The notes below the pieces were generated by a model that was not told where the DNA came from, ran no database searches, and saw only the letters and a list, made by a program, of their open reading frames with translations. From Pirellulales bacterium (GTDB taxonomy: Bacteria > Planctomycetota > Planctomycetia > Pirellulales > JAICIG01), in contig DATLUO010000051.1 of assembly GCA_035533075.1 (NCBI GenBank), positions 1 to 34,433 of the forward strand: 34,433 nt of DNA. Direction: 5' to 3'. The translations under genes and the position numbers were made by a program. Position 1 is the first letter of the stretch. Every line of letters starts with the position of its first letter. Positions 17,556-19,631 of this stretch are shown piece after piece.

Positions 17556-18362
17556 TTACCACGGGTTCCGCCAGTCGCCCCAGCGCTCGAGGTAGAGCTG
17601 ATAAGCCCGCACGGCGCCGGCCCGCTCTTCGAGCCACACCTTGGTGGCGGCGATCCGTTGTTGCTCGTCTTCGAGCGAGAGCTGGCCGACCAGCACCCGC
17701 GTGCGCAAGAAGACGAAGTACGTGTCGAGCACGTCGCAACGGCAGTAATCGTTGATCTCGGCCAGCTTGCCGGCCTCGTACAGGTCTTGCACCATGTGGC
17801 CTTGCACGTCCATTTTGCCGGGCTTGCCGAGCAGATTGGCCGCCAGATTCAGCCCGCCCGTGAACCGCGTCGAGCCAAAGTTCGTGAGCAGCTCTTGCAG
17901 GTCGAGATGACCTTCGACGTTATAGCGATGGCGCGGCTGATCGAAACTCTTGGCGTTGAGATTGAACCAGCCCGCCAGGCTGATGCCAAAGCGGAACGCC
18001 GCCAACTCCAACAGCGGCACATCGAACGAGCGGCCGTTGAAACTGACCAGCGTCGGCCGGCCGTAGCGCTCCCAGCCGCGCCAGAAGTGCTCGGTGATCA
18101 CGTGCGGGCGAAAGCTCGGCTCGTCGAGCGCCACCAGATCGAGCAGGCGATAGTCGGCCGCGACCTTGGCGATGGCCAACGACAGCGGCACCTGGAACGT
18201 ATAGGGAATGAAATCGCTTTCGAACTTCGCCAACAACTCGGCCCGGTAACGGGCGACCGCGGCGGCCGGCGGCAAGTTGTCGCCGGGATAGCGCAACCGC
18301 GACACCAACTCGCCGTCGGCGATGCTTTCGATATCGAAGACGAAGTAGCGGACGTCCGACAT
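17556..18362 (-). CDS. Predicted 3'-5' exonuclease related to the PolB exonuclease domain
   Basis: A protein of 268 residues with the RNase H-like DEDD fold of the DNA_pol_B_exo2 type (PF10108-like). Motif I is FDIES with Asp10 and Glu12. Motif II is SFNGRSFDVPLLE with Asp114, and H-L-D-L carries Asp154. Motif III is CDVLDTYFVFLR with Asp210. It should remove 3' nucleotides using two metal ions; the biological substrate is not known. An ATG at 18374 is also possible and would add four residues. The leader immediately upstream (18376-18465) holds two unusual hairpins and a T-run, so expression may be attenuated. Confidence 0.9.
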   Translation of the reverse strand: MSDVRYFVFDIESIADGELVSRLRYPGDNLPPAAAVARYRAELLAKFESDFIPYTFQVPLSLAIAKVAADYRLLDLVALDEPSFRPHVITEHFWRGWERYGRPTLVSFNGRSFDVPLLELAAFRFGISLAGWFNLNAKSFDQPRHRYNVEGHLDLQELLTNFGSTRFTGGLNLAANLLGKPGKMDVQGHMVQDLYEAGKLAEINDYCRCDVLDTYFVFLRTRVLVGQLSLEDEQQRIAATKVWLEERAGAVRAYQLYLERWGDWRNPW

Positions 18363-18375
18363 GTTTCTGCGCATG

Positions 18376-18465
18376 AAAAAGGCCCGCGTAGGCGGGGCAG
18401 GTACCTACGCGAGCCAACTAACTGGGGCCTACCGCAGGCGGGGCAGGAACCTGTGGCGGGCCAAC
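18376..18465 (-). promoter_or_regulatory. Leader with twin covarying hairpins and a T-run before the exonuclease gene
   Basis: Two ~38-nt hairpins, 45 bp apart. The one next to the gene has an 11-bp stem (CGCGTAGG with CCTACGCG, plus GGC with GCC around one mismatch). The distal one has GGCC with GGCC and CCGCAGG with CCTGTGG around an internal mismatch. The stems differ in sequence but keep pairing, while the loop CGGGGCAGG followed by TA or AA (plus strand) is invariant. On the minus strand the proximal hairpin is followed by TTTTT (18380-18376), two bases from ATG 18374. It could be an attenuator, a structured RNA, or the terminator of the upstream DNase gene. Confidence 0.6.
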
Positions 18466-18471
18466 GTCTCG

Positions 18472-18499
18472 TAATTTAGCAATCCCGCGTTGGATTGCA
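18472..18499 (-). promoter_or_regulatory. Candidate promoter, TTGCAA-N16-TAAATT
   Basis: Reading the minus strand, TTGCAA (18499-18494), 16 bp, TAAATT (18477-18472). Transcription would begin about 18465, at the first of the twin hairpins. The spacer includes an inverted repeat GCAATCC/GGATTGC (18479-18498). Confidence 0.45.
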
Positions 18500-18576
18500 A
18501 GCACTTTTTTGAAAAATTTTGGCCGGGGGTCCGGCGAAAGGGCGCGACGGCTGCCGGAAGCGTTAAAATCCGCGGC

Positions 18577-19545
18577 TTAGCGAAGATTTTCCGGGCGACC
18601 GCCGGCCGCCAGCGCCGCTCCGCCGCCCTCTTCCAGGGCGAATTCGGCCCAGATCGGCAGATGGTCGGAGACGGCCAGCGCCTGCTGCAGAGAAAGGTGG
18701 AACTCGTGCATCAGGTCGAACACGCCGGCATGCCGCGCGTATTCGACCGTCGTTCGCGAGTCGAACAAGATGTTGTCGTAGAGGTGCGTGCCGCGCGTGT
18801 TGGTGGGCACGCCCGAAATCACCCAAGTGATGTAAGCCACTTGGCCCAGTTCGCCCAGATGACGGTCGTCGGCGTTGAGATCGCCCAGCAGGATGATGTC
18901 GTCTTCTCCACGGCCGTCGTCGCGCACGGCCCGGAACACGTCGTCGAGCACGTTCAGCTCGGCCTGGGCCTCGTCGGGGTCGGTGTGGATGTCGATCAGG
19001 GTGAACGTGAAGGCACGGTCGGGCGGCGGCCCGCGCACGCGAAAACCGGCCACCAGTGGCTCGCGGTGCAACAGATCGTCGGGGTCGTCCACCGTGTAGA
19101 CGTTCTGGCGGTCGCACTCGACGCTGGCGGCGTTGTAGATGAAGGCGTATTGCTCCTTGCTGTTCGTGCGTCCCAGCCGCGGGCCGATGACGTAGTCGTA
19201 GTGCGAGCCGTCGGCATTCACCAGTTCCAAAAACCGCGGCAGCAAGTCATCGCTGGCGTCGCGGATTTCCTGGACGGCGACGACGTCGAAATAGCGCACC
19301 ACGCGGGCCAGCAGGTCGGCCGCCTGGGTGTTGGCCAGCTTCTTTTCGCCGAACACCTGGATGTTGAACGACGCCACGCGGACGGTATTGCCGCTGCGTT
19401 CGATCGGCGGCGCGCCGGCCAGCGTGCCGCCGGCTCCGCCCCCCAGCGGCAGGTGCTGCCAGAACCCACCGGGAAGCTTCGAGTTGGCGTACCAGGCAAG
19501 CGCCGCCACGAGCGCCGCCGCGATGGAGATCAATCGTTTCCGCAC
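18577..19545 (-). CDS. Membrane-anchored DNase I-like endonuclease
   Basis: A protein of 322 residues. An N-terminal hydrophobic helix (about 5-20) anchors or exports it. The rest is an endonuclease/exonuclease/phosphatase domain closely resembling animal DNase I: ASFNIQVFGEKK (Asn61), VQEIRD (Glu93), YDYVIGPRLGR, IDIHTDP (His187), GDLNADD (Asp222, Asn224), THLYDNIL (Asp257) and SDHLP (Asp294, His295). All the catalytic positions expected of DNase I are present, so it is probably an active, metal-dependent DNA endonuclease outside the cytoplasm. The GTG at 19545 is chosen because a strong Shine-Dalgarno AAGGAGGG lies at 19557-19550; an ATG at 19587 would place that site inside the gene. Confidence 0.93.
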   Translation of the reverse strand: MRKRLISIAAALVAALAWYANSKLPGGFWQHLPLGGGAGGTLAGAPPIERSGNTVRVASFNIQVFGEKKLANTQAADLLARVVRYFDVVAVQEIRDASDDLLPRFLELVNADGSHYDYVIGPRLGRTNSKEQYAFIYNAASVECDRQNVYTVDDPDDLLHREPLVAGFRVRGPPPDRAFTFTLIDIHTDPDEAQAELNVLDDVFRAVRDDGRGEDDIILLGDLNADDRHLGELGQVAYITWVISGVPTNTRGTHLYDNILFDSRTTVEYARHAGVFDLMHEFHLSLQQALAVSDHLPIWAEFALEEGGGAALAAGGRPENLR

Positions 19546-19631
19546 CGGTCCCTCCTTGGTCGGCCCCAGGATACCCGAATCCCGCATTGCGGCCCTAGGC
19601 CAGATTGTTGATCGGTCCGTAGCGCACGAGC

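Follow-up and report, generated by a model that had tools for sequence, protein, structure and literature searches.

A previously unlisted family of predicted small RNAs with a conserved CUGCCCC terminator loop in one order of planctomycetes

The 6C RNA of actinobacteria (RF01066), which corresponds to B11 in mycobacteria, is described in three reports as carrying C-rich loops that pair with G-rich ribosome binding sites (PMC10470900, PMC12395582, PMC9569102). In M. marinum B11 the seed, which represses messages that have G-tracts in this region, is reported to be the C-rich loop of the terminator (PMC12395582), and the targets of M. abscessus B11 are reported to have complementary ribosome binding sites (PMC10470900). 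6C RNA is further presented as chaperone-independent in the title of Mai et al. 2019, a paper cited in PMC10470900. For planctomycetes, the literature searched described no small-RNA family. The Rhodopirellula-1 motif is a candidate structured RNA of Planctomycetes and Proteobacteria that is probably cis-regulatory (Weinberg et al. 2010, PMC2864571); what it shares with the RNA described here is that it is a planctomycete candidate RNA, and the comparison is by description only, the table of that paper giving no Rfam accession. Intrinsic attenuators and leader RNAs offer a further point of reference, as a promoter, hairpins and a terminator right before a coding start are features that they share with the locus considered below.

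This locus lies in the window, by which we mean the whole 34,433-nucleotide stretch of DNA analysed. On the minus strand, a promoter read from the sequence as TTGCAA-N16-TAAATT (18500..18473) stands just before two hairpins, in agreement with the initial annotation (Table 1). Both hairpins of the minus-strand RNA carry the loop (U/A)CCUGCCCC and keep AGGU(U/A)CCUGCCCCGCCU, and their differing lower stems still pair. The predicted fold of the RNA (-44.5 kcal/mol) consists of exactly hairpins 1 and 2, and both are matched by R1, a covariance model built on the second hairpin, so that the twin hairpins with a shared loop stand as first noted. The loop then quoted, CGGGGCAGG, is however the complement of the one transcribed, CCUGCCCCG. 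Five T do follow the second hairpin, and hairpin 1 has no U-run of its own, but the start codon of the exonuclease gene is not directly behind them. Because the alignment of exonuclease orthologues begins at residues 5-8, the start is probably ATG 18362, which leaves 14 nt between the U-run and the gene, and the automatically called ATG 18374 is probably wrong. The latter codon is part of '(A/T)TGCGC', a sequence conserved at the tail of the RNA gene.

Table 1. Features of the small-RNA locus and its flanking genes, in positions of the window
Feature	Positions	Strand	Basis
Upstream gene: endonuclease/exonuclease/phosphatase family protein (PF03372)	18577..19587	-	Pfam E 2.1e-11
-35 element TTGCAA, putative small-RNA promoter	18495..18500	-	Sequence; element recurring in most family copies
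-10 element TAAATT, 16-nt spacer to -35	18473..18478	-	Sequence; family promoter scores
Predicted small RNA, ~92 nt	18376..18467	-	Two-hairpin fold; start estimated from -10
Hairpin 1, loop AGGUUCCUGCCCCGCCU, double-loop variant, no U-run	18426..18462	-	Partial R1 match 18427-18461, E 0.0019
Hairpin 2 (terminator hairpin), loop ACCUGCCCC	18381..18415	-	R1 match 18368-18416, E 1.6e-11; covariation in 90 copies
Intrinsic-terminator U-run, TTTTT	18376..18380	-	Sequence
Conserved ATGCGC directly after U-run	18369..18374	-	GCGC common after family U-runs
Downstream gene: DNA_pol_B_exo2 3'-5' exonuclease (PF10108)	17556..18362	-	Pfam E 1.8e-54; probable start ATG 18362

The hairpins of the window are not a product of chance, because the same genome holds seven strong R1 copies (E 1e-11 to 2e-7) in addition to hairpin 1 of the window, and the covariance-model search that the initial annotation had proposed for planctomycetes returned homologues in 160 of 296 genomes of the order (91 of 121 genera). 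Copy number per genome reaches 12 in this set. An exact 16-base pattern matched 11 of 39 genomes, in part at tandem arrays, and the copies inspected share one anatomy on one strand: promoter, variable hairpin, conserved-loop hairpin and T-run. One array comprises five small-RNA genes (G010:C364:7776-8957) and another three (G021:C188:85780-86223), at spacings of ~190-450 bp and with promoters wherever the sequence was inspected. In a phylum-wide draw, R1 matched five of 343 genomes, four of them of the same order; the single match outside the order, in G508 of the same class, was rejected as an ordinary terminator with another loop and without CUGCCCC. When 84,980 species genomes were scanned independently for the loop, its closing stem and a T-run, 99 stretches were returned, nearly all bearing planctomycete names, mostly Pirellulales, Thermoguttaceae and Pirellulaceae, alongside some vague or unlikely labels ('bacterium' for L193 and L255, a Flavobacterium MAG for L242). 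A match in Mageeibacillus (L184) was set aside as chance, with 33% GC and no extended stem, and one labelled 'Nealsonbacteria' (L164) is a full copy on what appears to be a mis-binned planctomycete contig. The same scan found no copy of the motif in named Proteobacteria. The family is multi-copy and limited to the order to which the window's genome belongs, the named matches being Pirellulales, Thermoguttaceae and Pirellulaceae. Searches of Rfam with the window and 13 related loci gave no match at the gathering score and nothing significant at relaxed thresholds. We conclude that these predicted RNAs form a previously unlisted small-RNA family.

The claim that selection acts on RNA structure together with a recognised loop is strongly supported by comparison of 90 copies of hairpin 2, gathered by R1 mostly without selection for exact sequence. 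Across its 13-pair stem, standard pairs fill 96.4% of cells versus 80.6% in shuffles, in an alignment that was fitted to the model structure and so favours pairing, though with a large margin over shifted partners. Double-sided changes occur at 12 of the 13 pairs, and the covariation score is 0.548 versus 0.242, with none of 500 shuffles scoring as high. All 89 alignment rows that span the loop core have CTGCCCC there, next to variable bases, and the stem position beside the loop drifts between A-U, G-C and U-A. The terminator loop has nine nucleotides and presents the invariant seven, CUGCCCC. Since the seed set was found by exact loop pattern, the outermost loop bases are invariant partly through this choice; the CUGCCCC core itself is conserved, because the loop variants recovered by R1 (GGUUCUGCCCCACC, GGUUGCUGCCCC and AAGUACCUGCCCCACUU) keep it. 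Conservation extends past the U-run: GCGC comes next in 56 of 78 copies, versus five of the 64 terminator-like sites used for comparison, and an independently selected set shows it in 55 of its 102 copies.

The elements are organised as genes in their own right. A sigma70-like promoter scoring at least 11.5 precedes 70% of copies, a score reached in 7% of shuffles and at 2% of sites elsewhere, and the end of the -10 element lies at a fixed distance (median 33 nt) from the start of the R1 model. The predicted RNAs are ~70-90 nt long, with a median of 70 nt, and for 74 of 77 the fold consists of exactly two hairpins, the first of which begins at the predicted transcription start. The sequence of hairpin 1 is hardly conserved, with 73 different 5' arms in a set of 76, and the hairpin folds well below shuffles (mean z -2.7). 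The loops found in it most often, GCAA, CUUG and UUCG, are classically stable RNA tetraloops. Covariation of hairpin 1 was not above shuffles in a MAFFT alignment of 16 similar copies, in which the stem is too conserved and the alignment poor, and an arm-swap test of this hairpin is biased since the arms were chosen by folding. The flanking genes of 73 copies show all four possible arrangements: 40 copies have a divergent gene upstream, on the strand opposite to the RNA; downstream, 51 are followed by a gene on their own strand and 22 by one on the other. Because these orientations are mixed, the elements are neither gene-end terminators nor dedicated leaders. Most have their own promoter and their own terminator in an intergenic region, as is required of a trans-acting small RNA, and on these sequence features the family almost certainly consists of independent small-RNA genes.

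The same observations bear on the simplest alternative, namely a plain family of intrinsic terminators, or a REP-like DNA repeat, with no RNA function. Such a family would also present a strong GC-rich hairpin with a U-run in dispersed, multi-copy form. However, it would account neither for a promoter at fixed spacing, nor for the frequent upstream genes on the opposite strand, nor for an invariant loop on drifting stems, the stable tetraloops of hairpin 1 and a gene order around the nuo locus (below) that is conserved across several families. This reading is exceedingly improbable, and a plain terminator or REP-type repeat is set aside on the grounds of promoter, orientation and loop conservation; a scatter at random gene ends only, which the initial annotation had named as the mark of a plain terminator family, is not what was found.

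The most frequent surroundings of the small-RNA genes are those of complex I. In 32 loci nuoA lies next downstream, with nuoB, nuoC and nuoD behind it, and a divergent M20 peptidase gene occupies the upstream position in 28 loci, names that we assigned by reading the sequences. This linkage spans several families of the order, and the site beside the complex I (nuo) operon is the commonest ancestral location. The interval from the small RNA to nuoA contains a separate promoter of the type TTGACC-N17-TAGAAT, and the nuo operon is therefore more than an extension of the small RNA. Nine of 30 such loci (L075, L077, L083, L109, L124, L137, L168, L234 and L240) also have a palindrome, TTTGTGA-N6-TCACAAAG, in this interval, which we take to resemble the operator of the NADH-sensing repressor Rex. 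Judging from these sites, redox state (NADH) may control complex I in these planctomycetes. At a second conserved site, seen in ~14 loci (e.g. L127, L132, L139, L142, L144 and L171), the RNA lies between two genes that, from reading their sequences, are presumably a divergent hypothetical gene and one for a beta-barrel-like outer-membrane protein.

These surroundings weigh on the proposal, along the lines of the initial annotation, that the hairpins form a cis-acting leader or attenuator that senses a ligand, a protein or another cue and thereby sets read-through into the downstream gene, here the exonuclease. The proximity of the window's U-run to the probable exonuclease start, the conservation of a double-loop form before the same exonuclease in G001, and the majority of downstream genes on the same strand are all in its favour. 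A leader would, however, be expected before one class of co-transcribed gene, and the survey of downstream genes suggested at the outset found no common class: nuoA is the commonest, a sizeable minority of downstream genes are on the other strand, and in the nuo copies the RNA is followed by a separate promoter. Further, the exonuclease is unlinked to the RNA in other families, and no alternative antiterminator fold is evident, as far as minimum-free-energy folds allow this to be inferred. Unlike attenuators and leader RNAs, the planctomycete family taken together shows no fixed association with the genes downstream. A leader function is therefore quite unlikely for the family, and independent small-RNA genes remain the preferred reading, with a cis role possible for the copies in the window and in G001.

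The tandem sensor that was initially envisaged does have a counterpart in double-loop forms, in which hairpin 1 carries the seed loop as well, but these are a minority variant of ~5% of copies. Besides the window, they occur in G001 (L100/L192), G028 (L113), G163/G203 (L104/L105) and G269 (L154), and at L170 and L193. In G000 and in G001, of a sister genus, a double-loop RNA lies directly before the same exonuclease (81% identical protein), at a distance of 24 nt in G001, and the upstream gene differs between the two. In other families, the places of the exonuclease and the R1 matches do not coincide. The window leaves no room for a separate exonuclease promoter after the U-run. Transcription of the exonuclease in G000 and G001 must come by read-through from the small-RNA promoter or from further upstream, and hence a cis role may have been added in these two genomes.

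In mechanism, the closest resemblance appears to be with the actinobacterial 6C/B11 RNA, yet the planctomycete family is not a member by Rfam score. Like 6C/B11, its RNAs are short, promoter-driven and multi-copy in some genomes, and they have a C-rich loop in an intrinsic terminator hairpin; the two hairpins of the planctomycete RNA compare with two or three in 6C/B11. Unlike 6C/B11, they belong to another phylum, their loop reads CUGCCCC where 6C/B11 has at least six consecutive C, and they have the conserved GCGC after the U-run. Further, the main planctomycete type has one C-rich loop, whereas 6C is defined by two hairpins with loops of at least six C each. The gathering cut-off of RF01066 (47 bits) was passed by none of 39 relatives and by none of the 296 genomes of the order, and the window gave no 6C match even at E<=10. 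Nearer to 6C is a two-hairpin RNA in G006 (L310, G006:C1:133583-133659), a genome in which neither the pattern nor R1 has a match; it scores 40.7 bits to RF01066, below the cut-off, and has the loops UUUCCCC and UGUCCCCCC and the ending UUUUUAUGCGG. A second kind of terminator hairpin, with a seven-C loop, occurs in family f17, in G093 (L315, G093:C69:18209-18277) and G097 (L317, G097:C161:2383-2459). From the RNAs of these three genomes, the order may harbour a wider range of C-loop terminator RNAs than just the CUGCCCC family.

Based on this resemblance, a mode of action can be proposed. The stable 5' hairpin and the 3' terminator would protect both ends of the RNA, and the RNA so protected would expose one C-rich seed loop. 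The CUGCCCC loop would then pair in trans with message sites of the GGGGCAG type and repress or otherwise regulate them, in an Hfq-independent manner comparable to that of the C-rich terminator loop in 6C/B11 RNA. The window copy would be double-headed, its hairpin 1 too presenting a seed loop. Hfq was found in none of 39 genomes of the order, including that of the window. We regard a free-standing small-RNA family that acts by Hfq-free C-loop pairing in trans as likely, and pairing between loop and mRNA, taken by itself and argued by analogy, as somewhat favoured. The fuller picture, an order-wide, Hfq-independent class of ~70 nt that has converged on 6C/B11, is anchored at nuo, reaches 12 copies, is partly double-headed and serves as an exonuclease leader in the window's family, is put forward tentatively. 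A search for GGGGCAG, GGGCAGG and their sub-words at called gene starts showed no consistent enrichment, the starts and gene calls being rough, and GGGCAG was depleted there in one set. In 39 genomes, GGGGCAGG-N4-11-ATG had ~990 matches versus ~630 for a scrambled word, a difference that has no per-word background rate and is not evidence.

The main rival to seed pairing is sequestration of a protein, by the logic of CsrB or 6S RNA, in which many copies would soak up a protein with specificity for the CUGCCCC loop. Binding of a protein would equally fix a loop, and several copies per genome, tandem arrays and double-loop forms would all suit a decoy. However, the stem next to the loop drifts, so that the protein would have to read the loop alone, and no candidate protein has been identified. 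We consider such a decoy unlikely, and pairing of the C-rich loop with messages is the reading carried forward.

A widespread, easily recognised and multi-copy small RNA would provide a direct handle on post-transcriptional control in planctomycetes. It would also offer an independent test of the chaperone-free seed in a C-rich terminator loop, an idea that has so far been actinobacterial. Finally, double-loop forms, which have emerged repeatedly, and the conserved linkage to complex I yield concrete predictions.
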